Made by a program: the position numbers and the translations under genes
The notes under the pieces: generated by a model
Told to the model about the DNA's origin: nothing
Databases searched by the model: none
Seen by the model: the letters and a program-made list of their open reading frames with translations, nothing else
Shown: in pieces, positions 1-17,931 of the stretch
Position numbering within the stretch: position 1 is the first letter of the stretch
Layout: each line of letters opens with the position of its first letter
Virus record (IMG/VR): IMGVR_UViG_3300042197_004108
Location: 1 to 20,593 of that record
Reading direction: 5' to 3' (one strand)
Source of the DNA: a virus
Length of the DNA: 20,593 nucleotides

Positions 1-655
1 CGACGTTGTACATGAAGCAATGATCTTGACGTATACGTTCTAAGTGATATTTATCCGTTAACATAGCAGTTATTTCGTCGCGCGTAAAGGCTTCGGCATA
101 GGGACAATCTGCCTGTGCCTCAAACTGGTCAAGACCTTTTTGTATCATGGCATACTTCCAGCTGTTGCGAGCATACACCATGAAGCGCAACTCACCTTCG
201 GGCAGCAGCAGTTGGGCTATGTTGTTGATGTTTTGTTGTATGTTGGGAAAATGATGCAGAACCCCATAACTGTAGACCAAATCAAAAGGCTCCAATGCCA
301 GCAGCGCATCGATGTCGGTCACAGACCTTTGAAAAAACATTCCCGGCAAGTCCAAGCACTTAAACCTTGTGCGGCAGAGATCGATGCTGGCCTGGCTAAT
401 GTCTATGCCGGTGTAATGTGCGCCGTGGCGGGCAAACTGCTCTGCGTCGGTGCCAATGCCGCAGCCAATCTCCAGCACTCTTTTGCCACGCCAAAGATGA
501 AAACCAGCAAAGTCCAAGATGTGTGGTTCGGCACGATACCGCTTGGCTGTGACCTCTTCGAAGTAGGCTGCGGTACCTATCTCTGAGCTGCCATGATTAA
601 TATTACAAGGCTGGCGGTTCCAATAATCAATTATCTGCTGTTTGATATCAAGCAT
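1..655 (-). CDS. Class I SAM-dependent methyltransferase, 3' end missing
   Basis: The reading frame starts at the ATG at 653-655 and runs off the left edge without a stop, giving 218 complete codons. Residues 60-70 (VLEIGCGIGTD) are motif I of the Rossmann-fold methyltransferases, which binds S-adenosylmethionine. An acidic residue follows the second strand (YTGIDIS, about 81-87), and FDLVYSYGVLHHF (124-136) matches the family's motif IV region. The start overlaps the stop of the upstream glycosyltransferase by 8 bases, which indicates translational coupling. No target-recognition domain is visible. The profile resembles small-molecule, lipid or sugar O-methyltransferases rather than DNA methyltransferases, since no DPPY or NPPY motif is present. 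With the adjacent glycosyltransferase, methylation of a sugar is a reasonable guess. Fold assignment is firm; substrate is unknown. Confidence 0.85.
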   Translation of the reverse strand, partial: MLDIKQQIIDYWNRQPCNINHGSSEIGTAAYFEEVTAKRYRAEPHILDFAGFHLWRGKRVLEIGCGIGTDAEQFARHGAHYTGIDISQASIDLCRTRFKCLDLPGMFFQRSVTDIDALLALEPFDLVYSYGVLHHFPNIQQNINNIAQLLLPEGELRFMVYARNSWKYAMIQKGLDQFEAQADCPYAEAFTRDEITAMLTDKYHLERIRQDHCFMYNV

Positions 656-1514
656 CTTTGAATTGCGACAGTTGACGATTTGGGTCCTGCTCCGGGCTGC
701 ACATCCATGCCCACGGATCTTGTTGACCGGCCATGACATTCTGAAACCATGATACGTCTTGACCACGTTGTTGTATATACCAAGCCAGCTTTATTGTGTC
801 ACTGACTCTCCTGATGCGCCAGTCGATGTGGTTGAAATCCCGGGGGTCATTAGGACGTCCTTCAAACATGATTCTTTCTTGATAAGTGGTGTCGTGATTG
901 TTTCCGGTGAGATCGTGTCTGTCGTGCAGCACAGACACATCGATGTTGCGCATGATACCCAGCATATAGGCAGTCTGGCTGATCCATGCATCAGATATTT
1001 GGTGTGGACTTAGGTATCCCATGAGTCTGTACCACTCTATGGGCACAATAGGAAAGATCGCATAGGGGTGATTATTGTGAGTGGGCATGCGCAACACAGC
1101 AAACTCTCCGTCGTGCTCAGTGATGCGTTGATCCCAGCCTGGTGTTTGCATGATAGCATCGTCGTTCCAAAACATCAACCAGCGACCCGCGGAATGTTTG
1201 GCCAATTGATTGACATATTGGTTGAGGTTAGCATAGCCCATGCGTTCTGATACCAGAATCTTGTTGTTATGATCTTGATCTCGCAGTAAGGGTGCAATGG
1301 TGCTCTGAATGTATTCTAGTGCGGTTTTGTCATCATCGTCTAGGCCATACAGGATTTCAATGCTCATGGGGTCATGAGCTGTGTCTAGCAGGCTCTGGAC
1401 GCTGCGAAGCAGGGCATCAGTGCGTCCTCGTGTGGGCAGCAGCACTGATACTGAGAAAGGCAATGGTGTGGTCCAGTTTATGAAGCGACCTAGGTTGAGC
1501 GGTTGAGATGCCAT
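648..1514 (-). CDS. GT-A (GT2-like) glycosyltransferase
   Basis: This 288-aa protein begins with a typical GT2 opening (SVSVLLPTRGR, then ALLRSVQSLL) for binding a nucleotide sugar. RWLMFWNDDAIMQ follows, whose NDD is the likely metal-binding DXD-type motif. The C-terminal half is rich in Trp, His and Asp and shows no membrane segment, so a soluble enzyme is expected. The frame is open to an ATG at 1589 (313 aa) and another at 1553. I prefer the ATG at 1514 because it lies 10 bases past the queD stop and directly precedes the conserved domain; the longer starts would overlap queD by 29-65 bases. None of the starts has a strong ribosome binding site, so the start is uncertain. It is downstream of the queD promoter and overlaps the methyltransferase. 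The acceptor could be modified DNA, a virion protein or a host glycan. Confidence 0.75.
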   Translation of the reverse strand: MASQPLNLGRFINWTTPLPFSVSVLLPTRGRTDALLRSVQSLLDTAHDPMSIEILYGLDDDDKTALEYIQSTIAPLLRDQDHNNKILVSERMGYANLNQYVNQLAKHSAGRWLMFWNDDAIMQTPGWDQRITEHDGEFAVLRMPTHNNHPYAIFPIVPIEWYRLMGYLSPHQISDAWISQTAYMLGIMRNIDVSVLHDRHDLTGNNHDTTYQERIMFEGRPNDPRDFNHIDWRIRRVSDTIKLAWYIQQRGQDVSWFQNVMAGQQDPWAWMCSPEQDPNRQLSQFKDA

Positions 1515-1524
1515 GACGTCGGCG

Positions 1525-2016
1525 TTAACCTTTGTAAATGGCGCTGTTGGCATTGTGTTCGAAGACTTCCACGCTGCGCAAACGCACATTTTTGTTTATC
1601 ACCGCACCGGGCGTGGATTTCAATTCTTCCAGGATAGAGGCCATTTTTTCATAGGCCAGTTCAGCAAACTTTTCACAGCCCACTGCTGGAACAATGCGCA
1701 AATCAACGATGCCTAGATTGTTATATCCACCCTTGATATCCAGCATCTGTTTGAAAAATTCCAGTTGCGGATCATCTTCTGCCACCAATAGAGTGTGATC
1801 AAACATGTATTCAGCCCACTTCTTGAAGCGATCCAGGCCACCAAAGTCCATGACCCAGTTGCGCTCGTCCAGGATGTCGCTCTCGAATATTAACTTGATT
1901 CCAATGCTGTAGCCATGCAGCAGGCTGCAGTGGCTGTGAGTGCTGCGCCACTGGCGGAAGCAGCAGCTGAGTCCACGGTCATTGCCGTAAGTTTTAGTTG
2001 ATAGATATTTGGCCAT
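1525..2016 (-). CDS. queD: 6-carboxy-tetrahydropterin synthase family protein (QueD-like)
   Basis: QueD converts dihydroneopterin triphosphate, the product of FolE, into 6-carboxy-tetrahydropterin in the preQ0/queuosine pathway. In this 163-aa protein the catalytic Cys is in HSHCSLLHGY (C30, with H34 as a metal ligand). MDFGGL (56-61) and FDHTLLVAEDDP (72-83) supply the Asp-His pair. CEKFAEL (114-120) corresponds to the family's PTSENLA motif, and VEVFEHNANSAIY (149-161) holds the conserved Glu that binds the pterin. The usual LHGH reads LHGY and the first zinc His is not obvious, a variant I associate with phage and marine members. A good ribosome binding site (GGAG) sits 8 bases before the ATG, and a near-consensus promoter lies about 80 bases upstream. 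The folE partner is at 5526-6206. QueD and pyruvoyl-tetrahydropterin synthase share this fold, so the exact product is inferred. Confidence 0.85.
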   Translation of the reverse strand: MAKYLSTKTYGNDRGLSCCFRQWRSTHSHCSLLHGYSIGIKLIFESDILDERNWVMDFGGLDRFKKWAEYMFDHTLLVAEDDPQLEFFKQMLDIKGGYNNLGIVDLRIVPAVGCEKFAELAYEKMASILEELKSTPGAVINKNVRLRSVEVFEHNANSAIYKG

Positions 2017-5525: not shown

Positions 5526-6206
5526 TTACGAATGCCCCTTCATGCTCAAGCAGATATCGTAAAACTCCTGCTTGAGTGCGGGATCTGTGGAAAAAGCACC
5601 CAGCATGATGGCAGTGGTCATGTCAGACTCATGCTCGCGCACGCCGCGCTGCGTCATGCAGTGATGCTCGGCCTTGACCAGCACAGCAATATGCTGCGTC
5701 TTGGCATACTTCTTGAGCGCTTCTGCGATCTGCGTGGTCATTTCTTCCTGGATCTGTGGGCGTTCACAGATATGGTGCACCAAGCGATTGAACTTGCTGA
5801 GTCCGATCACTTCGTTTTCTGGCACGATGCCTACCCAACAGCGCCCAACGATGTTCTGGAAGTGGTGCGCACAAGTGCTGCGTATGCTGATAGGGCCTGT
5901 GGTGTAAAGGCTTTGATAGCCCATGTTGGGAAACGCGGTGACCTTGGGCACAGGACGATAGCGTCCAGAAAACGTTTCCTTGACAAACATCTTGGCCACG
6001 CGCCGAGCAGTGTCCTGTGTGTTGTGGTCATGGTCAGTATCAATCACCAAGCTTTCAAGAACGGTCTGGAAGTTGGCAGCTACTTCATCCACAAGTTGCT
6101 CAAGCTCGTTGTCATATACAAACTCTGCAATGTTGTCGTTGCTGTGGTATCTTGCACCAGCTGCTTCGATGCGTTGTCTAATGGTATTGCTGATTTTTTC
6201 TGTCAT
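5526..6206 (-). CDS. folE: GTP cyclohydrolase I
   Basis: FolE converts GTP to 7,8-dihydroneopterin triphosphate, the first step of both folate and 7-deazaguanine (queuosine, preQ0) synthesis. The 226-aa length matches the family. Zinc ligands are visible in STCAHHFQNIVGR (C112 and H115) and EHHCMTQRGVRE (C183). The usual CEHH reads CAHH. VIGLSKFNRLV (133-143) is the conserved substrate-binding block, and the TARRVAKM segment (66-73) matches the family's N-terminal helix. A promoter-like TATAAT sits 22 bases upstream, and AGAG serves as a modest ribosome binding site. With queD at 1525-2016 and the transglycosylase-fold gene at 10931-12472, deazaguanine synthesis is the likely role; folate supply for nucleotide synthesis is the alternative. 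Confidence 0.93.
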   Translation of the reverse strand: MTEKISNTIRQRIEAAGARYHSNDNIAEFVYDNELEQLVDEVAANFQTVLESLVIDTDHDHNTQDTARRVAKMFVKETFSGRYRPVPKVTAFPNMGYQSLYTTGPISIRSTCAHHFQNIVGRCWVGIVPENEVIGLSKFNRLVHHICERPQIQEEMTTQIAEALKKYAKTQHIAVLVKAEHHCMTQRGVREHESDMTTAIMLGAFSTDPALKQEFYDICLSMKGHS

Positions 6207-6227
6207 GATGATCTCTCTATGTGATGC

Positions 6228-6256
6228 ATTATATAGATTTGTAGGCGCAAGAGCAA
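6228..6256 (-). promoter_or_regulatory. Possible promoter for folE
   Basis: On the minus strand TATAAT (6233-6228) is a perfect -10 box in the 60-base gap between the epimerase stop and folE. The -35 position at 17 bases reads TTGCTC, with only three matches. It would give a leader of about 15 bases. The support is mainly the -10 box. Confidence 0.4.
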
Positions 6257-6266
6257 GAATTTTGGT

Positions 6267-7223
6267 TCAGCTTTGTGCCTGGGTCCATGTCCAGGCATGA
6301 TCAATCATGTCCGAAATGGTGTATTTTAATTCACTCCCAGATACCTTGTGCCATTTCGCAGCATCGGCAGTCAAGACCACGCTGTCTCCGGCGCGCCGTG
6401 CATGATCCTGGATGGACAGAGTCTTGCCCGTGATCTCTTGTGACTGCTGTATCACTGACCTATTGCTGGTGCCCACACTGGTACCGAGATTGAATATGCC
6501 TGTGTAGGCATGCTCGCAGGCCATGACATGGGCCTGGGCAATGTCCCAAACATGCACATAGTCTCTCACACAGGTACCATCCGCGGTATCATAATCTGTG
6601 CCATAGAGATGGAAGATGTCACTGTTTTTGAGGCATTGCAGAACCCGGGATATAAGATGCTTGGCGTCGCTGGCCTGACCATGCCGACCACGAGGATCAG
6701 CTCCACAGGCATTGAAATAACGAAACACTGTATATTCCATGCCATAGGCTCTGTAATAACTTTCCAACAACCACTCGGTCATGAGCTTGCTTTCCCCATA
6801 GGGCGAAATGGGCAAGGCAGGATCTATTTCCTGACAGGGAATCATGAGTGGGTCACCGTAACAGGCAGCGGTGCTGCTGAAAACAATGCGTGTTTGGAGC
6901 TGGTTGACTCTCAGATATTCCACCAGCCGCTGGGTTTTGACAAAGTTGTTGTCGTAGTACAGCGCAGGATCGCTCATGCTTTCTTCCACACTGACACTGG
7001 CAGCACAGTGTACAATGACATCAGGCTCATGATGCTGGATCCAATGCAAGGCATCGTCGCTGGCAAAGTCGCCCACGAACATGCGATTGTTGGCAGAGAG
7101 CTCGTTGAGCCGGCTGGGCGGCATCTTGATATCCAGCATGAGAACCTCATGTCCTGCGTCCATGAGATTCAGCACAGTCTGTCCGCCAATATAGCCGCTG
7201 GATCCGGTCACTAGTATCTTCAT
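6267..7223 (-). CDS. galE: UDP-glucose 4-epimerase-like SDR enzyme
   Basis: This 318-aa protein is an extended short-chain dehydrogenase/reductase. It has the NAD-binding GSSGYIG (7-13) and Asp31 after the second strand. FSSTAACYG (115-123) and SPYGESK (140-146) supply the catalytic Ser/Thr, Tyr142 and Lys146. RYFNACGADP and CVRDYVHVWDIAQAH are hallmark GalE sequences. GalE interconverts UDP-glucose and UDP-galactose using bound NAD. E. coli GalE has 338 residues, so this one is slightly short, and related epimerases acting on other UDP-sugars cannot be excluded. GGAG lies 9 bases before the ATG. It lies 36 bases downstream of the GT-B gene, so it most likely supplies the sugar donor for that transferase. 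Confidence 0.88.
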   Translation of the reverse strand: MKILVTGSSGYIGGQTVLNLMDAGHEVLMLDIKMPPSRLNELSANNRMFVGDFASDDALHWIQHHEPDVIVHCAASVSVEESMSDPALYYDNNFVKTQRLVEYLRVNQLQTRIVFSSTAACYGDPLMIPCQEIDPALPISPYGESKLMTEWLLESYYRAYGMEYTVFRYFNACGADPRGRHGQASDAKHLISRVLQCLKNSDIFHLYGTDYDTADGTCVRDYVHVWDIAQAHVMACEHAYTGIFNLGTSVGTSNRSVIQQSQEITGKTLSIQDHARRAGDSVVLTADAAKWHKVSGSELKYTISDMIDHAWTWTQAQS

Positions 7224-7259
7224 AGCCGATGCTCCATGATCGCTGTTGGTATCTTAGGT

Positions 7260-8483
7260 TTACAGATCTTGATATTCACAGAACTGCGGAGCCAGTTTGA
7301 GTTTGTACTTGGCCTCAGGCACATGATCGCGATAGCGATTACCATTGCGATTCCACTGCTCGCCCTGGCCCGTGATGATGTCCACGATGCGATCCACAGT
7401 GCCGTTGGTCCAGTCCGAAATCACGCCCATGTTGTGATGTGGTTGGTTAAGCAGATTGGTAAGCTTGCCCACGGCATCGTCTTCGCTCCAGGGCACGTAC
7501 ATGCGCTCGGGATCGTTGGCAAAAGTTTCAGGGAAGCTGCGATAGGCTGGATACAATACGTTACATCCCAGGGCATCTGCTTCACTCACAGTGTTGCTGA
7601 CCCAGTCCTGCAAGGCACAGTTGAACAGCACTCTAGTATCGTTCAGGAGCTCATAGTATTGATTCTTGCTGAGATTTTCATAGATTTCCAGCTTGCCCTG
7701 GGCTGCCATGCTCCGCGCACGTTGCACATATTCAGGATTGTTGCTGCGCAACGGACCGCCTGAGAATACTGCGAACCGGGTGTCAGGCGCTACTTGCTCC
7801 TGATATCGTTCCGCGAGATCCATGAAGAAGCCAGGTTGCTTTTCTTGATCAAATCTTGCAGCAAAGGCCACTCTGCGAGTGCGCTGGCTGAAGTTGCGGA
7901 TTTGGTCTGCGCCCCCGATGCGCTCCTGTACTTCCTCCTTGCCAAAGGCTAGACCGGAAATATTATAGATAGGAGCACGCCAACCAGCAATGCGCATATG
8001 AGCAACCATTTCCTCGTTTGACGCCAGGACCGCGGTTGCAAAACAATTGACCATTTTTTCATATAAATCCATCCAGGGCTGCATGCCCCATACATGTACA
8101 AAATCATCGGGATCGATGCTCTGGGCCAGGCATCGAACAAAGATACGAGGGCGCTGGGACTCAGGAACTTGATCCAGGATATACGGGAGACTTTCCATCC
8201 CAGGTTGGAACATGTCTTCGAAATAGACGACATCTTCACTGGTGACATCGCCCTGCTGCATGAGCCGCACAAGATTCATCATCTGGCTCATGGCAAAATA
8301 ACTGCGACCGTGTGCGTCCAAGACCTGGCCCACAGAGATTTTTTTACTGTGGTCTAAGTTCAATCCAGGCACATAAACAACGTCTAGTCCGCGGCGTTCA
8401 AAAACTCTGCGATTCCATTCGGTCAACTGGAGAGTGTATCGAGCTTCGTAGGACTCTAGACCCATGTAAAATAATTTACGCAT
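7260..8483 (-). CDS. GT-B fold glycosyltransferase
   Basis: The 407-aa protein has the two-domain layout of GT-B glycosyltransferases. The C-terminal domain starts around VAFAARFDQEKQP (205-217), the usual donor-domain opening. A glycine-rich turn follows (AVFSGGPLRSNNP, 238-250). LFNCALQDWVSNTVSEADAL (286-305) contains the conserved Glu that binds the nucleotide sugar, and GCNVLYPAYRSFPE completes the GT4-type signature. No membrane segment is present. AGGA is placed 4 bases before the ATG. It sits between a 72-aa gene and galE. T4-like phages use GT-B enzymes (alpha- and beta-glucosyltransferases) to decorate modified DNA bases, and this gene is in the same gene block as the DpdA-like gene. 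Glycosylation of DNA is therefore possible but not shown; virion or host-surface glycans are alternatives. Confidence 0.75.
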   Translation of the reverse strand: MRKLFYMGLESYEARYTLQLTEWNRRVFERRGLDVVYVPGLNLDHSKKISVGQVLDAHGRSYFAMSQMMNLVRLMQQGDVTSEDVVYFEDMFQPGMESLPYILDQVPESQRPRIFVRCLAQSIDPDDFVHVWGMQPWMDLYEKMVNCFATAVLASNEEMVAHMRIAGWRAPIYNISGLAFGKEEVQERIGGADQIRNFSQRTRRVAFAARFDQEKQPGFFMDLAERYQEQVAPDTRFAVFSGGPLRSNNPEYVQRARSMAAQGKLEIYENLSKNQYYELLNDTRVLFNCALQDWVSNTVSEADALGCNVLYPAYRSFPETFANDPERMYVPWSEDDAVGKLTNLLNQPHHNMGVISDWTNGTVDRIVDIITGQGEQWNRNGNRYRDHVPEAKYKLKLAPQFCEYQDL

Positions 8484-8497
8484 GATAGTCCTCTAAA

Positions 8498-8716
8498 TTA
8501 CAAGCCGCGTTTGGCATCCAAAGACCACATGTCTTTGGCAGGTTTGCCTTGGCAGTACTTGTTGAACTGCTGGAAAGCATAGCTCTTCCAATTGTAGAGA
8601 TCTGACTCATCGTAGCGATATCCAAAGTCTCGACAGAAACCTAGATAGTGCTCAAGGTCATCAAAAATAGCCACCACGCGCGGGTTTACACGGGATACAT
8701 TCTTTCGGTCTTTCAT
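8498..8716 (-). CDS. Small conserved-looking phage protein (72 aa)
   Basis: The sequence begins MKDRKNVSRVNPRVVAIFDD and has an aromatic, charged centre (YLGFCRDFGYRYDESDLYNW) before ending KDMWSLDAKRGL. The pattern recalls short hypothetical proteins of T4-like marine phages, but I cannot name a family. A strong ribosome binding site (AAGGAA, 6 bases before the ATG) and a 40-base A/T-rich gap upstream make it a secure gene. It lies 14 bases before the GT-B gene and should be co-transcribed with it. Confidence 0.7.
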   Translation of the reverse strand: MKDRKNVSRVNPRVVAIFDDLEHYLGFCRDFGYRYDESDLYNWKSYAFQQFNKYCQGKPAKDMWSLDAKRGL

Positions 8717-8756
8717 TTTATTTCCTTCAATTATTACTATTAATCAACAACAAAAA

Positions 8757-9194
8757 TCATCCTGACTTGACATATCTGATGTAACTGCCGTTTTCGCCGT
8801 CTTCAGACACTTCAATCCACATGTCTCGACCGGGGTAACGTACGGCTATCGCAGTATACAAATCATCGCTGATCATTTCACAGCTTTTGTGATCTAAAGA
8901 CAACACATTGTCTTGATAGAGACTTTCGCACCAGCGTTTGAGCTGTATGAATTCTATGTCACGGTCATTGTGGAACACCTCAACCCAAACACGAAAATGA
9001 AATATATGTCTGTGTGGGTGACTCAGGAATGATACATCATCTGGGCCACCAGTGGCCAATCGTGGATCAGTGGCTGCAGCAGGATAACAGTGAATGCCCT
9101 CTTTTTGGAAGGTGATCCATATCATGCGTCGGGACGCTTCGCGTCGCGCATCTCTGGCGTCTTTGAGAGCTGCCTGTCTTTGGGCATCAATCAT
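8757..9194 (-). CDS. Uncharacterised 145-aa protein, possible tunnelling-fold (PTPS-like) member
   Basis: The frame is open from a TTG at 9227, but the ATG at 9192-9194 overlaps the upstream TGA as ATGA, so I use that start. The sequence shows HPHRHIFHFRVWVEV, then DIEFIQLKRWCESLY, then LDHKSCEMISDDLYTAI and MWIEVSEDGENGSYI. This order (His pair entering a beta strand, Asp/Glu-Phe before a helix, a Cys-Glu at the start of a second helix, and a closing strand with Glu) resembles 6-pyruvoyl-tetrahydropterin synthase and QueD. No catalytic Cys in the usual place is visible. The likeness is by eye only, and the protein may be unrelated. It lies in the block with the DpdA-like and radical SAM genes. 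Confidence 0.65.
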   Translation of the reverse strand: MIDAQRQAALKDARDARREASRRMIWITFQKEGIHCYPAAATDPRLATGGPDDVSFLSHPHRHIFHFRVWVEVFHNDRDIEFIQLKRWCESLYQDNVLSLDHKSCEMISDDLYTAIAVRYPGRDMWIEVSEDGENGSYIRYVKSG

Positions 9195-9715
9195 GGGATG
9201 GGTTTGTCCTTTTGGTAATGTTGCCAAGGGGTAAAATTTTCGGTGCTCATGAGATCATGTAGTCTGTGGCACCAAACCCCGGGATTGGTGCTGTCAAAGT
9301 CACGATCATCCAGTTTGATCATAGTGTTGTAGTTCCATAGGCGCACATAAGGCACCGATACTCGTATTTGGGGGATAAAGTTATTGTATTCGCACAGACC
9401 GCCTTCGTTGAAATCTTCCGCAGCATCAATGGGAATATCAAGGCTACACAAATAATTTCTTTTAAGGAAGAACATAATCATTTCTTCCCAGGCATGCCAA
9501 TCACCGTTTCTAGCAGGATTATAGGAATGGTTTGCACCAAAGAAAATATGCTTCACAGGATCTCCTATGCTCATAAAGGGGTCTGCCAATATCTTTTCTA
9601 TGGAATCTGTGGTGTGTAATCCCACAACAAACAGAGTTTTCATTCCAAAGGCAGGGGTGCGTTCCACTTCCTGGCCCAAGAAAAAGCCTACATTGTCGTG
9701 TCCGGGCCTATTCAT
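9191..9715 (-). CDS. Uncharacterised 174-aa protein
   Basis: The ATG at 9713-9715 overlaps the stop of the radical SAM gene by 8 bases; a TTG at 9727 would add four residues and is less likely. Notable segments are MKTLFVVGLHTTDSIEKIL, HIFFGANHSYNP, CSLDIPIDAAEDFNEGGLCE and MIKLDDRDFDSTNPGVWCH. The beta-rich opening and the conserved-looking Asn-Pro-Gly-Val-Trp end suggest a folded enzyme-like domain. I cannot assign it to a family. Its stop overlaps the next gene as ATGA. Tight coupling between the radical SAM gene and the possible T-fold gene suggests that the three act in one pathway. Confidence 0.7.
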   Translation of the reverse strand: MNRPGHDNVGFFLGQEVERTPAFGMKTLFVVGLHTTDSIEKILADPFMSIGDPVKHIFFGANHSYNPARNGDWHAWEEMIMFFLKRNYLCSLDIPIDAAEDFNEGGLCEYNNFIPQIRVSVPYVRLWNYNTMIKLDDRDFDSTNPGVWCHRLHDLMSTENFTPWQHYQKDKPIP

Positions 9716-10778
9716 AAAGTTCTCCAAAAATTTCTTGATGACGTATGCCGCGCTGACTATCTATCTTTTCAATACCAGGCATGTGTGTGATGTCACGGTC
9801 TGAATACATGTTCTGGGCAAATTCCAGCAGTTGATCTTGTAACACAGGCAATAGCATTTCACTGTATTGTACAAGATCCTGGCGTAGAAAGTCAATACGT
9901 GATTTAGCCAAATCGCTCCAACTCACAGCACTACCATAGTATGGATTGATGAATATGCGATCCTGGGAGATATGGCACGAGGCAAAATATATGGCTTCTT
10001 GTATGGCCCAGGCCGTGAGCGGGAATAGGATCATGCTGGCTTCCACACGCTCAAAATCCCGCGTGACCTGACGCCAGTTAGATTCAAACACCGACCACTG
10101 CGCAGGATATCTGATGTACTCAAATCTCTGTCCCCTTGATTCAAAGCTCACTATGACCTTGACATTGGGAAATTGCTTCAAAAGTTCCCAAAATGGATTA
10201 TTTTGATAAGTTGTAAGATTGGTATTGACTACGATCTCGCAACCTTGATTCATGATTAACATGCGTTTCAGCAGCAACACATTGCTCTTGATTAGGCTGG
10301 GCTCACCACCCGCCAGGGTCAACATCTCTAACTTCATGAGATCCGAGTCCGCCAACACTGGCACATTACGTTTGCTGGATCCATGCAAGAGTATTTGTTC
10401 CCATCGGCTGCTATACTCGGGGCCACAGTACACGCACGATAGATTGCAGGTGTTCTCAGCCTGTAATTGCAGCGTCCTTAGCCCCACTTCATCATTATTG
10501 AGATGGGGATACATGTTGATATAATCCAATCTATAACTGCGACCAGTGTGTTGTTCTTCTTGCCAACAACGACCGCAATCCCGTGGTTGGGATCCGGATT
10601 CTATGTCGTGACGTATGCGCGTTGCTTCGGATCCTTGCAAGGCGCTGCCCAAATCGCCGTGGTCCAGGTACGTGGCGTTGTTGCAACATATACGCACTTG
10701 GCCATTTGTGTCCACCAGGAGATTATGGCGTACGGCAGCACAATCATTCATCATCAAAGCCATGTCGGTCATAGTCAT
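9708..10778 (-). CDS. Radical SAM protein with N-terminal cysteine cluster
   Basis: Radical SAM enzymes cleave S-adenosylmethionine with a 4Fe-4S cluster to start radical chemistry. The cluster motif is CNLSCVYC (C111, C115, C118), followed by LAGGEPSLI (155-163), the SAM-binding GGE motif, and IVVNTNLTTY. Before the core lies a second Cys group (C31, C32, C68, C71, with CGRCW), resembling a SPASM or twitch-type auxiliary cluster placed at the N-terminus. Such domains are common in enzymes that modify peptides. At 356 aa it is too long, and its motif too far in, to be QueE. The start is uncertain: ATGs at 10778, 10772, 10763, 10754 and 10751 are all possible, and the last two just overlap the DUF465 stop. 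Substrate unknown. Confidence 0.85.
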   Translation of the reverse strand: MTMTDMALMMNDCAAVRHNLLVDTNGQVRICCNNATYLDHGDLGSALQGSEATRIRHDIESGSQPRDCGRCWQEEQHTGRSYRLDYINMYPHLNNDEVGLRTLQLQAENTCNLSCVYCGPEYSSRWEQILLHGSSKRNVPVLADSDLMKLEMLTLAGGEPSLIKSNVLLLKRMLIMNQGCEIVVNTNLTTYQNNPFWELLKQFPNVKVIVSFESRGQRFEYIRYPAQWSVFESNWRQVTRDFERVEASMILFPLTAWAIQEAIYFASCHISQDRIFINPYYGSAVSWSDLAKSRIDFLRQDLVQYSEMLLPVLQDQLLEFAQNMYSDRDITHMPGIEKIDSQRGIRHQEIFGELYE

Positions 10779-10950
10779 GTTCCCACTGGTTCTTTTGCAG
10801 TCGGAACAGTTGATCCTTTAGCAACAATCGTTGTTTTTTGAGATCAGACAGTTGCACATCGTTGTAGCATCCAGTTTTTTCAAGTGCATCGATGCGACGA
10901 TCCAGTTCGGCATGCAATCTCTGTAGTTTTTCAATCTGCTGCTGATACAT
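10744..10950 (-). CDS. DUF465/YdcH-like small coiled-coil protein
   Basis: The 68-aa protein is a helical hairpin with the family pattern LHAELDRRIDALEK, a short loop, then LSDLKKQRLLLKDQLFRLQ. DUF465 (YdcH) proteins are widespread in Proteobacteria and of unknown function. The ATG at 10948-10950 is preceded by GGAG at 10 bases. An ATG at 10971 would add seven residues but has no ribosome binding site. The gene starts inside the end of the transglycosylase-fold gene (20-base overlap) and ends inside the start of the radical SAM gene. This suggests an accessory or assembly role for one of them, or simple gene packing. Confidence 0.7.
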   Translation of the reverse strand: MYQQQIEKLQRLHAELDRRIDALEKTGCYNDVQLSDLKKQRLLLKDQLFRLQKNQWEHDYDRHGFDDE

Positions 10951-12472
10951 CTTGCTGCTGCTCCAAAACATTCAAACTATTGGCGTCAAGCTCATCGCTA
11001 TCGCTGGGCGAGATGTCTTGCTCAAATAAATTATTGAACATGGTATGAGCGTTGACTGCTCGCTTTCCAGTAAATCCTCTCGTGCCCACAACACGTTCCC
11101 ATACTTTAGCATGATCATCAATGATGCGCAGACTCTTATGGCGATCCCGCGCAGCAAAAACACGGTCAATGACTCGGCGCACGTCATAATTGCTGTCAGT
11201 GGGGTGCACCATCATGTCAGGTGAGATGCCTTGATCATAAAGACGGTTGGCTCGCTGCACTGCCTCGATGTGCATCCAAACATTGTGGCCCATGAGCAAA
11301 GCGTAACTGAAACTGTCCCAAGACGTCTTGCCCTCTTTGCCGATCTTGTTGAGATCACCGGGCCGATACACGCAGACATCGGAGATCCGGAGTCGACTGC
11401 TGATGGGGCTGTCTTCGAACGTGGCATGGACGCCATCTTGTGTGACTGCGTCGCAGAAGGATCTGGTGTCGGTGGCATACTTTTTGTCGTCCACAGTGGG
11501 CGACATCTTGTAGCTCCATTTGCCACGATTGTCAGTGGCAATGGTGTGATACAACTGTCCGTTGGCAATGGCCAGGAACGGTGATGCGCAGTCAAACGAA
11601 ATGGTGAAATCAGGGTTATGATATTTTCTTACCGCGCGTTGGATATCGGTAAGCAGCACAGCCCACTCCAGTTTACTGGTGCCCAGGAAGTGCATCCAAT
11701 CATGAAGACCTTGCTGTAGCAAGCCATCGTGTATGAGATGCACCAGGCGTTTCAATACCAGATGCACATCGCACATGTTCTGACCACCCATGGCCCAACC
11801 TTCAAATGGTCGCTGATGTCGGGCAGGATCTGAATAGTCTTTCATGAGACTGTACCAGTGATCCGCTTCGGCGTGATTACCGCCCTGCAGCACGTTCAAG
11901 GTCTTGGTCGTGCCGTAACGGTTGGCCATCCAAAAATCATTGTTGAACTTGGTGGCCGTGACCGCATCTTCATAGCTGGAGATACCGGCCAAGGCCGCCC
12001 ACTCGGGATTGCGATATGTCCAAGTGGGTATGTCCATGGTCATACCGTATGTGGCTATGCCCATTTGCCATTTCAGCACTTCTTCACGTTTGAGCTGTGC
12101 TGCTCGATCTCGGGGATCAGCCCAGCGTCCCGGCCACACGCCCTTGGCGATCTGGAATCCGCCTGAGTCTGCCAGCATGATGGTGCCGGGATCTCGATTT
12201 CGGATCATGTCCTCTTTAGGATAATGCTTGGTGAGATCAAGATTGGCATGTCCCGCTGAGTAAAGACTCCAGCGATATGGGAACAATGCCTTGTGTGGAT
12301 TCAGCCAGTTCATCTGTTCCATGTCTTGTATGCCCGCAGGCATGCGTGACTGGGGCACATATGCATCGGATCTCTGCTTGCCTACGTAGGTAGCATAGAA
12401 GCCAGATATAGCCGGCAGGAACACAGCATAGTCATGCTGCGCAGCAGTTAAGTCGTGTTTTTCAATGGTCAT
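10931..12472 (-). CDS. dpdA: Transglycosylase of the TGT superfamily, DpdA-like
   Basis: TGT enzymes swap guanine for a 7-deazaguanine base; the DpdA branch does so in DNA. The 513-aa protein shows the TGT order: MLADSGGFQ (99-107, catalytic Asp102), MTMDIPTW (144-151), LNVLQGG (192-198), GWAMGG (225-230), HFLGTSKLEW (261-270) and ISFDCASPF (291-299). In the last, Asp294 matches the nucleophile of the bacterial FDCVMPTR motif. The zinc-binding CxCxxC with distal His found near the end of tRNA enzymes is missing, and the C-terminal part has a different, His- and Arg-rich sequence. Length exceeds bacterial TGT (about 375). These points favour DNA over tRNA as substrate, but this is not proven. 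folE and queD in the window could feed it. The start overlaps the sulfotransferase stop by 11 bases. Confidence 0.75.
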   Translation of the reverse strand: MTIEKHDLTAAQHDYAVFLPAISGFYATYVGKQRSDAYVPQSRMPAGIQDMEQMNWLNPHKALFPYRWSLYSAGHANLDLTKHYPKEDMIRNRDPGTIMLADSGGFQIAKGVWPGRWADPRDRAAQLKREEVLKWQMGIATYGMTMDIPTWTYRNPEWAALAGISSYEDAVTATKFNNDFWMANRYGTTKTLNVLQGGNHAEADHWYSLMKDYSDPARHQRPFEGWAMGGQNMCDVHLVLKRLVHLIHDGLLQQGLHDWMHFLGTSKLEWAVLLTDIQRAVRKYHNPDFTISFDCASPFLAIANGQLYHTIATDNRGKWSYKMSPTVDDKKYATDTRSFCDAVTQDGVHATFEDSPISSRLRISDVCVYRPGDLNKIGKEGKTSWDSFSYALLMGHNVWMHIEAVQRANRLYDQGISPDMMVHPTDSNYDVRRVIDRVFAARDRHKSLRIIDDHAKVWERVVGTRGFTGKRAVNAHTMFNNLFEQDISPSDSDELDANSLNVLEQQQDVSAAD

Positions 12473-13112
12473 GGGCTTGCTTGATTAGATCGTAATCTCG
12501 TTGGTAGCGTTCACGTATACGTTGTTCGAGTTCAGGTCTAAACGACAAACGTTTTTGGAACCACTGTTGGAGTTTTAATAAATGCCAATTTTCACTGTTG
12601 TTATTTAGATGCTGCAGATTGATTTGCAAGATATCATTTGTTTTCTGCGCAAAAAATTGATCCATAATGATATAACGACACTGGGCAGTGACTAAGTCGG
12701 GTATGAAATCACTTTGTGGCCACACATGGTCATCAAATCGATCACATTGATCGAATATGATCCTTTCAACAAGATCAGTGTATTGCTCACGAAACTGAAG
12801 TATTTCCATATGATAATCATGCGAGGTGGCCATGCTTTGCGCGAACACTGGTCCATTGGGACCTACCGGACTCAAAATAGAGGTGCGGATATATTGTGCT
12901 ATACCACTTATCCAACGCTGTATGGGATCTCTCAACACCACAATTATTTCTTTAACATCAAAAACGGGATCAGGCAGTTGCGTGTGACGCCAACCGCGAT
13001 TTCGGAGAGATTCAACAATGCTGGTACTGGCGTTTTTGGGTATGGGAATATAGGCACGCAGCCCACTTGGATCAACCATGGGCAGTCCACGTATCACCAA
13101 CGGCCTAGTCAT
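12462..13112 (-). CDS. Sulfotransferase-family protein
   Basis: Sulfotransferases move a sulfuryl group from PAPS to a hydroxyl or amine. The 216-aa protein has YIPIPKNASTSIVESLRNRG (21-40), the 5'-phosphosulfate loop with Lys26. It also has IIVVLRDPIQRWISG (56-70), the 3'-phosphate site with Arg61 and Ser69. Both motifs are in the correct order and spacing for the Sulfotransfer_2 type that acts on carbohydrates. HVWPQSDFI (128-136) is also typical of that type. No signal or membrane anchor is present, unlike Golgi enzymes, so it is cytoplasmic. It starts by ATGA overlap with the 93-aa gene. Sulfotransferases occur in several marine phages with unknown acceptors. Here the neighbouring genes hint at a modified base, sugar or peptide. 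Confidence 0.82.
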   Translation of the reverse strand: MTRPLVIRGLPMVDPSGLRAYIPIPKNASTSIVESLRNRGWRHTQLPDPVFDVKEIIVVLRDPIQRWISGIAQYIRTSILSPVGPNGPVFAQSMATSHDYHMEILQFREQYTDLVERIIFDQCDRFDDHVWPQSDFIPDLVTAQCRYIIMDQFFAQKTNDILQINLQHLNNNSENWHLLKLQQWFQKRLSFRPELEQRIRERYQRDYDLIKQAHDH

Positions 13113-13400: not shown

Positions 13401-14132
13401 TTATTTGGATTGTGCTGGTAGGATGTAGTTGTAGACAGCGATGCCTGAATCCACAGTGACCTGCATGGCGCCCTCGTCTGAGATCTTGATGACCTTGTCG
13501 CCCACAAGATCCAGGATGCTGATCAACTGTGATTTAGGCCATGACCATGAGTGCTTGAGATTGCCAGTGATATCGGGTTGGAACACAAATTCGCCGGCAT
13601 GTGTGCTGTGATCACCAAAGTAAAACTTTAAGTTTCGATTTTCAGTTCGTACACGAAAATTGCTTTCTTCAGCATTGGCCTGGCTCTGCATCTTGAGTCG
13701 CTGGATACCAGCCACGGTGGGTTCAAACTCCACGTTCCAGGTCACATTTTTCATCTTGGCTGTGCGCAGCTTTTCTGCCACGATCTCTGACGTCATAAAT
13801 CTGTAGTCGTTCTTGAAGTCCCCGGTGGCATTTTCAAAGTGCAGGCCCACTGGTACATCTTCGCCGTTGCGATTCTGTTGGGTCACTGTGATACGGGCAT
13901 CTTCTTTGTATTCAGCCAAGCCCAGGATGATCTTGAGTTTGGCCAGGTTGGGCATGCCAAACGTGCCAATGAACTCGGCCACGGGCGCGTGATATCGTGC
14001 CTGGATCACCACGCTGCGATCTTCTGCCAGCCCGTCGATCACGGTTTCTTGGTCGGTACCCGTGATTTTGATCAGCTCGATGCAGCCTAGATCAAAAGTG
14101 TGTGCTACAAGGTCAAGTAAATGGTCTTTCAT
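13401..14132 (-). CDS. Sliding clamp, T4 gp45-like
   Basis: The sliding clamp is a ring (a trimer in T4) that holds the DNA polymerase on the template and, in T4, also activates late transcription. This 243-aa protein, a little longer than T4 gp45 (228 aa), has the clamp layout of repeated beta-alpha-beta units. Its end (SWSWPKSQLISILDL, then KIKISDEGAMQVT, then VDSGIAVYNYILPA) matches the C-terminal pattern of gp45-type clamps. The ATG overlaps the stop of the methyltransferase-like gene as ATGA. The clamp-loader genes that accompany gp45 in T4 are not next to it. The polymerase two genes upstream has a C-terminal clamp-binding peptide, which supports the assignment. Confidence 0.8.
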   Translation of the reverse strand: MKDHLLDLVAHTFDLGCIELIKITGTDQETVIDGLAEDRSVVIQARYHAPVAEFIGTFGMPNLAKLKIILGLAEYKEDARITVTQQNRNGEDVPVGLHFENATGDFKNDYRFMTSEIVAEKLRTAKMKNVTWNVEFEPTVAGIQRLKMQSQANAEESNFRVRTENRNLKFYFGDHSTHAGEFVFQPDITGNLKHSWSWPKSQLISILDLVGDKVIKISDEGAMQVTVDSGIAVYNYILPAQSK

Positions 14133-15274
14133 GATTGTTTCATCCTACGTTTAATTAATTTTGATAACTGCTGTGGAGTATAGTTATTTCTACAATTGTC
14201 GACAGTGTCTATATTTAGATTGACAGCAGTCATGATAAGGTTTTCTACCTCTGATGCAGTATACAACCTTGCGCTGTCATTGTCAAGGATTTTGTCTATC
14301 TGATCAGGCGATTTATTGTATACTCTGGCCAACGTCTGGCCGGCTTTCCAAGGATCAGTGAAGCCCGGCTTTGTAAGTTCTATCCAGGTGGTGCTGGCCG
14401 AAAGATGATAATGTAAATAGAAATCAAACCCCTGCTCCGTACTTGATTCTATGAACCATGACAGTGGTGAAAATGTTTGTGTGCCTTGTTCGGCGTTGAT
14501 GGCTCCGGCCCATCTGTCGCAGTCATTTATGGTACACAACAATCTACCGCCGGGTGCTAATATTTTGAAGATTGATTTCAAGTACAGTTGGATAGTGCTG
14601 GGCCTTTTGTAATTAAAAAAATTATAAACTAAACAACTGTCAAATTGTTGCGATGGAAGATTACCCAACAATAGTGCTGTATCGCCCGCGGGCAAGGTCA
14701 GGGGATCTGTGATAGTTTGGGGATAATCTCCTGGTTCTTTTATCACATATTTACGCAGTCTTCCTTGATACAGCGGCGGGAATTGCAACACACAGGCCTT
14801 CATGAGATCATCATGGGTATCAGCTAGATACAAGGGATCAAAACCAACCCAATGAGGGATCAAGTTTGCAGAGCCAGGACGTATGATAATACCAGGTTTT
14901 CTCCAATCGCCCAAAAGGCGCACACGATTCTGCACATATTCAACAGCATTTTGATCAAGATCAAGTTCTATCAATTTATCATATCCGGCCGCAAAGTTTG
15001 ATTCGCTTCTGCTGAACAAATCGGGCCAATGTGATTTAATAAGATTATCGAGTTCCCTGACTATCTGCCGTATCATGCCATGGTAAGAGTCTAGGCTGCG
15101 GTCCCAGTGCTGCCTAGTTTCTTCTAGAGTTGGGTACAGGTTGGTGTAAAATGCCGCGTTTGAAATCAATGAATAAACTGGCATCAATATATTTTCAATC
15201 AATTGTCGATCGTGGTGAGGCTGCCATACCTCATCAATGGCATTTTTCAATTTAAGTAGGTCCGCCAACTTCAT
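14129..15274 (-). CDS. Methyltransferase-like protein, degenerate SAM site
   Basis: In this 381-aa protein the stretch YLKSIFKILAPGGRLLCTIND (about residues 230-250) is typical of the motif VI region of class I methyltransferases. Upstream HWVGFDPLYLADTHDDLM may be the strand II and Asp region. FDSCLVYNFFNY just before the motif VI region fits motif IV. The glycine-rich motif I is not visible in its usual form; the corresponding place reads KPGIIIRPGSANLI. The first 130 residues are helical and have no known domain. The gene lies between polymerase and clamp, with 4-base ATGA overlaps on both sides, so it is translated with them. It may be a SAM-binding enzyme, or a fold that has lost catalysis and serves as a replication accessory. 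No family recognised. Confidence 0.6.
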   Translation of the reverse strand: MKLADLLKLKNAIDEVWQPHHDRQLIENILMPVYSLISNAAFYTNLYPTLEETRQHWDRSLDSYHGMIRQIVRELDNLIKSHWPDLFSRSESNFAAGYDKLIELDLDQNAVEYVQNRVRLLGDWRKPGIIIRPGSANLIPHWVGFDPLYLADTHDDLMKACVLQFPPLYQGRLRKYVIKEPGDYPQTITDPLTLPAGDTALLLGNLPSQQFDSCLVYNFFNYKRPSTIQLYLKSIFKILAPGGRLLCTINDCDRWAGAINAEQGTQTFSPLSWFIESSTEQGFDFYLHYHLSASTTWIELTKPGFTDPWKAGQTLARVYNKSPDQIDKILDNDSARLYTASEVENLIMTAVNLNIDTVDNCRNNYTPQQLSKLIKRRMKQS

Positions 15275-17931
15275 GAAAAGTCAAACAATGATTGAAAAGT
15301 GTTGGCTGTGTTTGTGGCTGATTCTAGGTCCCACTGCAACACACCCAAGAGATTGGTAATTTTTGAGTCAATGACGGTGGTTTCCATAAGGGCATCATCA
15401 AACGGCAACTCCTTGAACCACTGCGGTAGATGTAGTTCGTCTGTGGGATAAGCGATGCTGGTCCAGTTCAAGGGATTGTCCTTGAGCTTGCACACAATGA
15501 CTTTCATGCCATCCATGATGGTCATGCTGTAGTTGTCGCTGTTCATGCGCTTGAGTTCATTCCAGTTCATGGCCGCACGAACATGTCCTGGCATGTTGGT
15601 TTTGCCCTCGGCAGTTTCGCGCCTGGTATAGGTAGTTAGGTTATTAACTCGTTTGGGTGTGCCTTTTTCCCAGCCCGGGCGGTCGCGGAATCCAAGTTTG
15701 AAGTCACGTATTTTTTCAACTACCTGTTCTCGCAGTTCGCCCTGCAACACATTGTTCAGCACATCACTGAGAAATTCTTGAATGACTTTGGGAGTATCTG
15801 ATCTTTTGAGATCAAGCCCCATGGCCTTGACCTTGCCTGCGCGACCATTGACGTCGAGGCGCTTGCCTTCCTTGTCGATGATCATGACAGCGTAGCGTTT
15901 CTTGGTGATAAACAACCCTTTGCTGGCCACCAGCTCACGACCCCCGCGTATCACAGAGCCTAGTTCACGCGGCACATGAAAGGCCCGTTCCATGAAGCCT
16001 GGAAAACTCTGATTGACTTGTTCAGCGACTCCGTCATACAACTGTATGCAAGTTTCTGCGTTCCAAGACATACGACCCGATTCAACCTCGCTGCGCAGTG
16101 CGGGCCAAGCCGAAAAGTAGCATGAATCAGTGTCCCCATAAATGATGGCATCGCCCACATGATCGTAGCGTCCTGTGATACACTCGTTGACGTATGCGTC
16201 CATGTGTCGTGCAATAGCCCGTCCAGTCAGCGTGGTGCTTTGGCCGATGCGTTTATCAAAAAACCTACAGCCGGGATTGAGAATCGCTCCATACAGGCTG
16301 TTCAAGTTAATCTTTTTGACCAGCTGTCGTTTGTCCCAATATTCCTCTTGTTCTTTGTTGTCTGCCTGTTTTAGTTTGGCCTGCATCTCTTTTCGTTCTG
16401 CGTACCAGCGTTTCAGCAGTCCCGGAATCACGGCTTCTGTCTCAAACGTGAATATGGTTCCGTTGGCACTGAGGATCCATGGGCGATTGCTGTCAAAAAT
16501 CATGTGCCAAATTTCTGCAGCACTGTGGATGCTTTCTTCACCATTTTGCCAGTCTATAGTTATCTCAGTGCCTCGCTGCTGTTCCATGACAGCGGTGTAT
16601 TCCAGCGTGCCAAACAAGCCTTCCCAAGCCGCTGCAAAGCTGGCACCACCTGCTTGCTTTTCCGCGATGTAGCGGTCGGTCATGATGGGTCGCAGTTGAC
16701 CCACAATGGTTTCTGGTCCCATATTGAGGGCTCGGATGGTGCTGGGGTACAGACTATTGATGTCAATGCTGCCCACCCAATCATGCATGCCTTTTTTGGG
16801 AGTGGCCACATATGCACCCGCGGCCTGCGTTTCTTCGTCAGTGAGTTGCTCGCGCCGGTTGGGTACCACCATGCCACGCTCGTGCGCTTCGTTGATAATG
16901 GCCTGTTCTGTCACAGCCACAGCGCCCATGGTGGTGGGCAGCAGCACTGTGTTTTCATGCGCCAGTGTGTTGGCTAGGTCCAGGAAACGTAGTTTGCGAT
17001 CAATATTGGCCAGTAGTGTCACGTCCTGGCGGTTGTATTCTATGAATGTTTTCCAGTTCTGGTTGTAGAGCTGGTCCAATGTGCCTTCGAACGCTGTTTT
17101 GCTGCCCAGTTCTTCGTATTCACCAATGGCATCCAGGCTGTAACTGTGACGTTCCTCATAGGTGTACTTGCGGTACAGTTGCATGTAGTCTAGGTGTACG
17201 CGACCAACAAGATCAAACGTGATGTTTTCTGCACCAAATCTCTCAAAGGTGCGCTGCTTGGGCAACTGATTCCAAAGACAAAAGCGCCTCGTGTCGTCCT
17301 TGCTCAGCACTCTAGTCACGCGCTGCACCACGTAAGGTATGTCGTATCCCTCAGAGTTCCAACCACTCACAATGTCTGCGTCACCGATAAGATTTAGAAA
17401 AGTGTCCAATAACTCGCTTTCCTCGCGGAACACAAAGGTATTGGGAAATTCTCGCGCCACTTCGTGCGCTGTTTCATCACTCATGTGACGCGGTGGTACC
17501 ACCAAGGTGACCAGTTGGTCCAACCAGTCCAAGTACACTGATATGGCAGTGATTGGATTGAATGGATCTTCAGGGCGGCTAAATCCGCGTTCGGGATCAA
17601 AGTCTACTTCAATGTCAAAGAATGCTGTGTGCAGTCGCGGGGCGTCTTGACCCTTGTAGTTCTCTTCCAGGCAGCGGAATATGGGATTGATGTCTGCTTC
17701 ATACAAGGTCTTGCCCCGCTGCATGGCCAGTTCCTTGCGGAATTCTTTTTTATGGCGAGTAGAGAATCGAGCCACCGGTGATCCAAAAATCGATCGGAAC
17801 TTGCCGCGAGGATCATCATAATAGAAGATGTAGTTTGCAGGGTGTTCTTCATAGTATCGTTCACCGTTGCGTCGGCCTACTATGTGTATGCGATCTTTTT
17901 CGCGATCAAAAAGTGCATCAATGTAACTCAT
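15271..17931 (-). CDS. Family B DNA polymerase, T4 gp43-like
   Basis: This is the replicative polymerase with 3'-5' proofreading exonuclease. Exonuclease motifs are FFDIEVD (104-110; Asp106, Glu108), GWNSEGYDIPY (190-200; Asp197) and EYNRQDVT (298-305; Asp303). Polymerase motif A is SIDINSLYPS (388-397; Asp390), motif B is KKINLNSLYGAILNPG (539-554) and motif C is IIYGDTDSCYF (596-606; Asp600 and Asp602). KKRYAVMI follows. The 886 residues match T4 gp43 (898). The last residues, TFQSLFDFS, resemble the clamp-binding tail of T4-type polymerases. All catalytic residues are present and there is no intein or split. GGAG lies 7 bases before the ATG, and a good sigma-70 promoter lies 61-89 bases upstream. 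The gene starts a run continuing through the clamp. Confidence 0.97.
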   Translation of the reverse strand: MSYIDALFDREKDRIHIVGRRNGERYYEEHPANYIFYYDDPRGKFRSIFGSPVARFSTRHKKEFRKELAMQRGKTLYEADINPIFRCLEENYKGQDAPRLHTAFFDIEVDFDPERGFSRPEDPFNPITAISVYLDWLDQLVTLVVPPRHMSDETAHEVAREFPNTFVFREESELLDTFLNLIGDADIVSGWNSEGYDIPYVVQRVTRVLSKDDTRRFCLWNQLPKQRTFERFGAENITFDLVGRVHLDYMQLYRKYTYEERHSYSLDAIGEYEELGSKTAFEGTLDQLYNQNWKTFIEYNRQDVTLLANIDRKLRFLDLANTLAHENTVLLPTTMGAVAVTEQAIINEAHERGMVVPNRREQLTDEETQAAGAYVATPKKGMHDWVGSIDINSLYPSTIRALNMGPETIVGQLRPIMTDRYIAEKQAGGASFAAAWEGLFGTLEYTAVMEQQRGTEITIDWQNGEESIHSAAEIWHMIFDSNRPWILSANGTIFTFETEAVIPGLLKRWYAERKEMQAKLKQADNKEQEEYWDKRQLVKKINLNSLYGAILNPGCRFFDKRIGQSTTLTGRAIARHMDAYVNECITGRYDHVGDAIIYGDTDSCYFSAWPALRSEVESGRMSWNAETCIQLYDGVAEQVNQSFPGFMERAFHVPRELGSVIRGGRELVASKGLFITKKRYAVMIIDKEGKRLDVNGRAGKVKAMGLDLKRSDTPKVIQEFLSDVLNNVLQGELREQVVEKIRDFKLGFRDRPGWEKGTPKRVNNLTTYTRRETAEGKTNMPGHVRAAMNWNELKRMNSDNYSMTIMDGMKVIVCKLKDNPLNWTSIAYPTDELHLPQWFKELPFDDALMETTVIDSKITNLLGVLQWDLESATNTANTFQSLFDFS

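Follow-up and report, generated by a model that had tools for sequence, protein, structure and literature searches.

The insertion of deazaguanines into phage DNA is established (PMC6884629; this and the other articles cited by PMC number are drawn on in excerpt). In the systems of phages 9g, nt-1 and CAjan, a FolE-QueD-QueE supply is combined with DpdA, a transglycosylase of the tRNA-guanine transglycosylase (TGT) family (Hutinet 2019, PMC6884629). Here we describe a gene cassette that resembles these systems in both respects and lies in IMG/VR record IMGVR_UViG_3300042197_004108, a viral DNA of 20,593 bases (the window, always meant at its full length) whose likely genes are on the minus strand. 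Unlike the systems of 9g, nt-1 and CAjan, the cassette nearly always occurs without QueC, its DpdA-like enzyme is too divergent for the Pfam TGT model, and it includes an extra T-fold protein, an orphan and a glycosyltransferase (GT). QueC, the preQ0 synthase, is usual but not universal in DpdA-type modification. Phage systems terminating at 7-carboxy-7-deazaguanine (CDG), as the route of the cassette normally does, were reportedly described by Cui in 2023; they are said to give dCDG or dDG, to include DpdL, a predicted CDG decarboxylase, and to have no GT.

Partial parallels to the sugar step exist as well. T4-type DNA glucosyltransferases are also GT-B enzymes that add a sugar to a phage DNA base after replication. 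In glycosylated queuosine of tRNA (QTMAN, QTGAL; PMC12518689) the sugar is on a 7-deazaguanine placed by a TGT, but it is attached to the cyclopentene ring, and the route of the cassette has no such ring. Hypermodification of 5-carboxymethylcytosine by CmoX/CmoY is a precedent for the use of a carboxyl group on a phage DNA base as a handle, although the excerpted part of that article describes a cytosine base and an amide ligase, and no sugar (PMC12783734). The earlier note on the window, made by a model from the DNA letters, knew of no described phage pathway with its combination of activities. The deazaguanine part is already known in phages (PMC6884629, PMC7824862), and PA5oct is listed with a deazaguanine synthesis and incorporation system in the second of these articles, whose GT statements, in the part drawn on, concern polysaccharides. 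A GT coupled to DpdA was found nowhere in the literature searched; it may be in print elsewhere.

We consider it probable that the core of the block is a DNA hypermodification cassette, by which a CDG-derived base would be put into phage DNA and then glycosylated. The genes of the core and of the supply are the following.

10931..12472, minus strand: DpdA-like guanine transglycosylase, 513 aa, predicted to be a divergent TGT (AF2 model, Foldseek, kept aspartates)
9191..9715, minus strand: 174-aa orphan (g178), core member
8757..9194, minus strand: T-fold protein, QueD-like but without the Cys of QueD (hhalign to phage QueD, kept histidines)
8498..8716, minus strand: 72-aa conserved small protein (g72)
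7260..8483, minus strand: glycosyltransferase of GT-B type (GT4-like), with the inserted base as its presumed substrate (PF13524)
6267..7223, minus strand: galE-like epimerase, probable source of the sugar donor in some relatives (PF01370)
5526..6206, minus strand: FolE, GTP cyclohydrolase I (PF01227, 2.3e-46)
1525..2016, minus strand: QueD, outside the block of the earlier note (PF01242, 4.4e-15; phrog_2389, 1.5e-35)

Enzymes of the cassette and supply of the base

The DpdA-like protein had no match in Pfam (E 0.1), NCBIfam or PHROGs, and its profile gave nothing below E 0.03 among PDB sequences. The Pfam TGT model matched all 14 control genomes and none of six records (the window record and five phages). 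When the AlphaFold (AF2) model, built from an alignment of 19 rows (pLDDT 82.8, pTM 0.84), was compared by Foldseek, ranks 1-13 were all TGTs (E 7.2e-7 to 2e-4, TM 0.34-0.42 of the query; the best match had E 7.2e-7 and TM 0.40), followed at rank 14 by a xylanase (E 3.8e-4). All 50 entries shown by VIA were TGTs, the best with Z 18.1 over 295 residues at 4.1 A; a Z of 8 was reached by 747 of the 998 compared chains, in line with a common barrel. Within the family (this and the other counts of kept residues and motifs include repeats) D102 is kept in 193/193 and D294 in 194/194; they belong to DSGG(F/Y)Q and a later (F/Y)D, which we take to be the catalytic sites of TGT. The predicted fold and the kept aspartates indicate a putative TGT-family enzyme distant from the known ones, in agreement with the base insertion that the earlier note had suggested. 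CxCxxC, presumably the zinc site motif of tRNA-TGTs, was found in 0/194 family members.

The window includes FolE and QueD, and QueE is absent from the fragment. The nearest relative, whose DpdA is 88% identical, has an intact QueE some 13 kb beyond DpdA, in a region that the window does not reach. The supply genes were sought in 30 records carrying the block or parts of it, namely 25 contigs (G001-G025) and 5 named phages, and QueE was present in 30/30 and QueD in 25/30. No QueC was found in the window, where only an NAD synthase was seen, and the search of the 30 records returned weak QueC matches in five: three of them are NAD synthases, the X1 match looks like another, and the fifth is a QueC-family protein of contig G003. 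Two of the five scored above the curated cut-off, the NAD synthase of G006 and the G003 protein. Since QueE is universal in this set, QueD frequent and the QueC family limited to one of the 30 records, the supply route normally ends at CDG. The G003 protein (L241 1489-2184) is divergent with a Cys-rich end, and the same genome has the block and 16 twitch-type radical SAM matches. A phosphoribosyltransferase (PRTase), encoded close to QueE in several loci, could salvage the guanine released by DpdA.

As with the DpdA-like protein, no Pfam match at E 0.1 was obtained for the T-fold, orphan and 72-aa proteins, nor any PHROG match for the last of these. The T-fold profile aligned with phage QueD over 64 columns of the C-terminal half (hhalign E 3.2e-5, versus 0.07 or worse for eight other families) and had nothing below E 0.03 among PDB sequences. 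Residues H46, H72 and H74, and likewise R89, E92 and E117, are kept in 221/221 (numbered from the longer TTG frame, start 9227). The histidines, outside the aligned part, are spaced like what we take to be the zinc ligands of QueD. A conserved Cys is missing from the loop in these 221 sequences, and the Cys and Asp-His of QueD are lost, whereas phage QueD keeps both, invariant in 15 aligned; Cys, Asp-His and the zinc His are presumably the functional residues of QueD. The T-fold protein was therefore rejected as the QueD of the pathway, of which a separate copy exists, and we read it as a putatively repurposed QueD-like protein. Because it occurs both with and without the GT, it probably acts on the base and not on the sugar. 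DpdL is a candidate identity for it.

The structure model of the orphan (pLDDT 81.9) had no Foldseek match below 1e-3 in PDB and, in a viral structure library, matched only the ACP17 homologue below that value. In VIA, STAS domains reached Z 7.1 over about 90 residues, and three QueE structures had Z 6.4-6.7 over 126-135 residues, the longest alignments in the top 20 rows; Z values under 8 may reflect only a common arrangement. The CxxxCxxC cluster motif was present in 0/214 orphans, and the comparison with the QueE profile (E 0.056) was no better than the controls (clamp-like gene, 0.044; QueD, 0.014). Given the missing motif, the lack of sequence-profile support and the weak resemblance in fold, the orphan is not claimed as a QueE; that it may be a dead QueE-like binder of CDG is a lead, not a finding. 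Its best PDB sequence match (E 1.3e-5), a designed repeat protein, was discarded, as single repeats scored only 1.5 bits.

The GT was recognized by PF13524 (1.4e-5; 25.6 bits, cut-off 25) and by a match to PDB 6eji (E 4.3e-4), and R210, E214, K215 and E301 are kept in 123/123. The galE product matched PF01370 with 3.9e-50.

Recurrence of the cassette

Scans centred on the DpdA, T-fold, orphan and GT genes were each limited to the best 80 loci and favour close relatives; the T-fold-centred counts omit one and the orphan-centred counts six loci already in the set, and contigs recur between scans. Around 79 T-fold genes we found the GT in 76, DpdA in 76, the 72-aa gene in 74, the orphan in 71, folE in 54 and galE in 37. 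The 74 orphan-centred loci included the T-fold gene in 73, DpdA in 72 and the GT in 64, and the 80 GT-centred loci had the T-fold gene in 78, the orphan in 74 and DpdA in 70. Among the GT-centred loci whose upstream flank extends for 5 kb or more, DpdA, orphan and T-fold genes were each present in 60/60 and galE in 58/60. Thus the DpdA, orphan, T-fold and GT genes of the block for which the earlier note had proposed a co-occurrence check recur together and are not scattered independently. Of the genes behind its suggestion of glycosylation and a sugar supply, the GT travels with DpdA, and galE does so in part of the relatives.

Other genes of the window that enter the comparison are the following.

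12462..13112, minus strand: sulfotransferase-like gene, accessory and slot-specific
10744..10950, minus strand: DUF465 protein, frequent but not core (PF04325, 5.5e-12)
9708..10778, minus strand: twitch-type radical SAM protein, 356 aa, passenger
13401..14132, minus strand: clamp-like gene, constant upstream neighbour (phrog_12062, unknown function in PHROGs; the sliding clamp is our own reading)
15271..17931, minus strand: family B DNA polymerase, part of the replication neighbourhood (PF00136, 2.4e-37)
648..1589, minus strand: GT2-type glycosyltransferase (phrog_14945, 3e-17)

The usual order in the 80 DpdA-centred loci is polymerase, a 381-aa gene, clamp-like gene, DpdA, (DUF465), orphan, T-fold, 72-aa gene and GT, and then galE, folE, (HIT), QueD, GT2, PRTase and QueE, shortened at contig ends; in L057 it is rearranged. 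In relatives the clamp-like gene lies upstream of DpdA or of the accessory gene of DpdA. The criterion for a complete block was the presence of four genes (clamp-like, DpdA, T-fold and GT), which are thus found in all by construction, and the 155 blocks obtained were reduced to 133 distinct ones by dropping identical DpdA DNA. The distinct blocks contained the orphan in 126, the 72-aa gene in 105, DUF465 in 39, the sulfotransferase (between the clamp-like gene and DpdA) in 14 and the radical SAM gene in 7 (148, 123, 44, 16 and 8 of all 155). The core consists, then, of the DpdA-like, orphan, T-fold, 72-aa and GT genes, often followed by galE, FolE and QueD.

The distribution among named phages is nested. 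The T-fold protein matched 27 named phage records; the GT matched 16, all among the 27 (15 by tblastn and Phosso by profile); and the orphan matched 13, all among the 16, the PA5oct group and ACP17 included. Cellulophaga phage phiST carries the T-fold protein, Faecalibacterium phage Roos had a weak T-fold match, and a weak orphan profile match with a stop in RHph_I1_18 (E 0.02) was excluded from the counts. Eleven representative phages with the T-fold protein were compared. FolE was in the stretch shown in ten (exception Paride), QueE was seen in nine (exceptions the stretches of Bakedbeans and D479) and the GT was present in five. The GT adjoins the T-fold protein or the TGT in five named lineages, BUCT-ZZ01, the Paride/PA5oct group, ACP17, X1 and Phosso; in support of a cassette, Paride has also retained the orphan, at a distance of 26 kb from the block. 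These GT-bearing phages use two distinct TGT families, that of the window's DpdA (Paride, Phosso) and that of ACP17, X1 and BUCT-ZZ01; the six phages with the T-fold protein and without the GT have a third, short family that is TGT-like by eye only. The ACP17-type TGT is present in 70 records, of which, by organism, the GT matches include only the two ACP17 records, BUCT-ZZ01 and X1. Since this TGT mostly occurs without the GT, the GT follows the T-fold protein and not the TGT family, and the idea that it follows certain TGT families was dropped. The ACP17-type TGT also matches a gene of Vibrio phage nt-1, presumably its DpdA2; nt-1 is listed with DpdA2 and QueC (Hutinet 2019, PMC6884629).

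A DpdA of the same family as that of the window (4e-64) is encoded in Vibrio phage 2.275.O, close to a gene resembling the clamp-like gene. Its cluster includes QueC (1.6e-50), an annotated QueF, a COG1738 transporter, which we take to be of the YhhQ family, and an amidotransferase-like gene. No T-fold protein, orphan or GT was seen in the 19.7-kb stretch read of this partial genome or found in the phage by tblastn. One insertion enzyme is therefore found with two outfits, either QueC/QueF or the T-fold protein and GT without QueC, and this contrast is our best argument that the latter two process the CDG branch. The product of an amidoligase-like gene directly after DpdA in 2.275.O (L374 10723-11835; PF12224, 1.8e-4, 21.9 bits against 22) may attach an amide to the inserted base.

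Proposed route, acceptor and competing explanations

In the proposed route FolE, QueD and QueE, the last presumably encoded just outside the fragment, would make CDG from GTP. The QueD-like T-fold protein would take the place of QueC and either decarboxylate CDG or present it. Guanine in phage DNA would be exchanged for the CDG-derived base by the DpdA-like transglycosylase, whose gene lies beside replication genes, and the GT-B enzyme would add to that base a sugar that, in the window's branch, would probably come from UDP-galactose or UDP-glucose made by galE. The orphan and the 72-aa protein may assist, and the purpose would be to protect the phage DNA from nucleases. Such a route predicts a class of phage DNA modification, a sugar on 7-deazaguanine, in many uncultured contigs and in the isolated phages BUCT-ZZ01, Phosso and Paride; it gives testable roles to phrog_17812 and phrog_10773, families of unknown function in PHROGs, and could explain why CDG is the end point of some pathways.

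Several points weigh against it. The classical substrate of TGTs is tRNA. In 6 of the 11 named phages the T-fold protein is not accompanied by this GT, and contig G003 has the block together with its weak QueC-family protein (6.2e-7, 29.6 bits, versus the 1.6e-50 of QueC in 2.275.O). L370 (6962-8842) and L372 keep the sulfotransferase, 72-aa gene and galE with no DpdA, orphan, T-fold or GT gene within 7 kb, and are a natural variant that could show which of the parts belong together in function. A single replication neighbourhood is common to most viral loci, and 161 DpdA sequences form 55 clusters at 80% and 19 at 70% but 7 at 60% identity, so that part of the co-occurrence is common descent. 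Finally, CDG or 7-deazaguanine offers the GT no hydroxyl. The acceptor atom is the weak point: CDG has its carboxylate and 7-deazaguanine a nucleophilic C7. A more specific product, glycosylated 7-deazaguanine linked via the C7 carboxylate or at C7, with an O-sulfated sugar in a minority branch like that of the window, is a doubtful proposition; a DNA base would then bear a sugar that is sulfated and anionic.

The missing hydroxyl also speaks for an explanation that we regard as unlikely, in which the deazaguanine part modifies DNA while the GT glycosylates a virion protein, a glycan of the host surface or a different base, for example a hydroxymethylpyrimidine. GT clusters devoted to polysaccharides are known from jumbo phages (PMC7824862), and near the block are another GT gene (648-1589) and a gene with weak resemblance to GDSL lipases. 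However, close relatives of the GT are accompanied by DpdA, orphan and T-fold genes in every one of the flanked loci, and the GT adjoins the TGT or the T-fold protein in the five named lineages. Hydroxymethylcytosine is the acceptor of T4-type enzymes, but the thymidylate synthase/hydroxymethylase family (PF00303), which may be plain thymidylate synthase, was found in only 8 of the 30 records, many of them fragments, and a hydroxymethylpyrimidine acceptor is therefore probably not general.

An RNA target of the TGT, be it tRNA or some other RNA, with the cassette altering translation instead of DNA, is improbable. The fold does match tRNA-TGTs, and queuosine of animal tRNA can bear a sugar (PMC12518689). 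Nevertheless, the family has no CxCxxC, its gene sits with a DNA polymerase and a clamp-like gene, and in 2.275.O this TGT family is combined with a gene set that includes QueC and resembles those of known DNA-modifying phages. We give equally little credence to the view that the genes are neighbours by descent within one phage lineage, with no common pathway. Conserved proximity extends to the polymerase and clamp-like genes, and the radical SAM gene is a passenger, as this view would have it. On the other hand, the TGT, T-fold protein and GT have been retained despite rearrangement of the block in phages of Pseudomonas, Acidovorax, Xanthomonas, Sinorhizobium and Synechococcus, the distribution is nested, and 2.275.O has QueC/QueF in place of the T-fold protein and GT. 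DNA hypermodification by insertion and glycosylation remains the explanation that we favor.

Gene layout, accessory genes and neighbours

All ten genes that the earlier note had placed in one block are open minus-strand frames at the positions it gave, and the re-read frames agree with a chain of short overlaps followed by gaps of at most 60 bases. With the likely starts, the sulfotransferase and DpdA genes overlap by 11 bases, DpdA and DUF465 by 20 (start 10950; 41 with the longest frame), DUF465 and radical SAM by 8 to 35, depending on which of five ATGs is used, radical SAM and orphan by 8 (start 9715), and orphan and T-fold by 4 (start 9194). The gaps are 40 bases between the T-fold and 72-aa genes, 14 between the 72-aa gene and GT, 36 between GT and galE, and 60 between galE and folE.

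The sulfotransferase matched Pfam below the cut-off (0.027) and a PHROG at 3.6e-4. P25 and K26 are nearly and R61 and R66 fully conserved in 19 aligned sequences, and these positions may belong to the 3′-phosphoadenosine 5′-phosphosulfate-binding motifs. The gene follows the clamp-like gene in 29/29 loci (25 distinct sequences). Three of these loci have fewer than 300 bases behind it, and in one of them (L346) DpdA still begins. Among the 26 with enough flank, DpdA comes next in 23, mostly overlapping; one of the other three has a second sulfotransferase first, and two have no DpdA. No named phage record was matched at E 0.01, and the gene is present in 5 of the 25 related genomes. It is a minority but slot-specific gene, and the sulfation suggested earlier is left as a possibility for the branch represented by 14 of the 133 distinct blocks. 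Vibrio phage Bakedbeans has another sulfotransferase-like gene (L255 5382-6053; PF03567, 0.0014, under the cut-off) just before FolE and the T-fold gene, with no blastp match to that of the window.

The best match of the radical SAM protein was an NCBIfam twitch domain model (4.1e-45, under its cut-off). This type of protein gave 131 matches in the 25 related IMG/VR genomes (4.25 Mb), up to 16 per genome and often clustered, a density from which about 17 of the 133 distinct blocks would be expected to carry one by chance, versus the 7 observed (8 of the 155 loci versus 19); the expectation is approximate, as the NCBIfam model was used for it and our own profiles for the block count. In a single-protein scan, which reaches close relatives only, the window's gene had no close relative in viral contigs. 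The gene was consequently rejected as a pathway member, being rarer in blocks than its genome density predicts, and the radical chemistry that the earlier note had suggested is not supported for it: it is a passenger of a family common in related genomes, and the radical SAM step needed by the route is that of QueE.

The GT2-type glycosyltransferase is found in 40 of the 80 GT-centred loci, often after QueD, and possibly provides a second sugar step. In Synechococcus phage BUCT-ZZ01 (L082 12010-16167) two different glycosyltransferases flank the TGT and T-fold protein, which suggests a disaccharide or two sugars.

Elsewhere in the window, an S-adenosylhomocysteine hydrolase gene (19785-20582; PF00670, 2.6e-81), also near the polymerase in seven relatives of the first set, may serve S-adenosylmethionine-dependent modification. 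The NAD synthase gene (2510-3289; PF02540, 3.6e-48) adjoins a HIT-domain gene (2128-2520), and close NAD synthases are located elsewhere in G006, G015 and G017; the pair could have a role in NAD-related counter-defence. In a collection of genomes scanned for a possible host, the cassette was also found in three contigs of metagenome-assembled genomes (L259, L260 and L261), one of 335 kb, which are labelled Neomarinimicrobiota, Pacearchaeota and Euryarchaeota and are probably misbinned phages.

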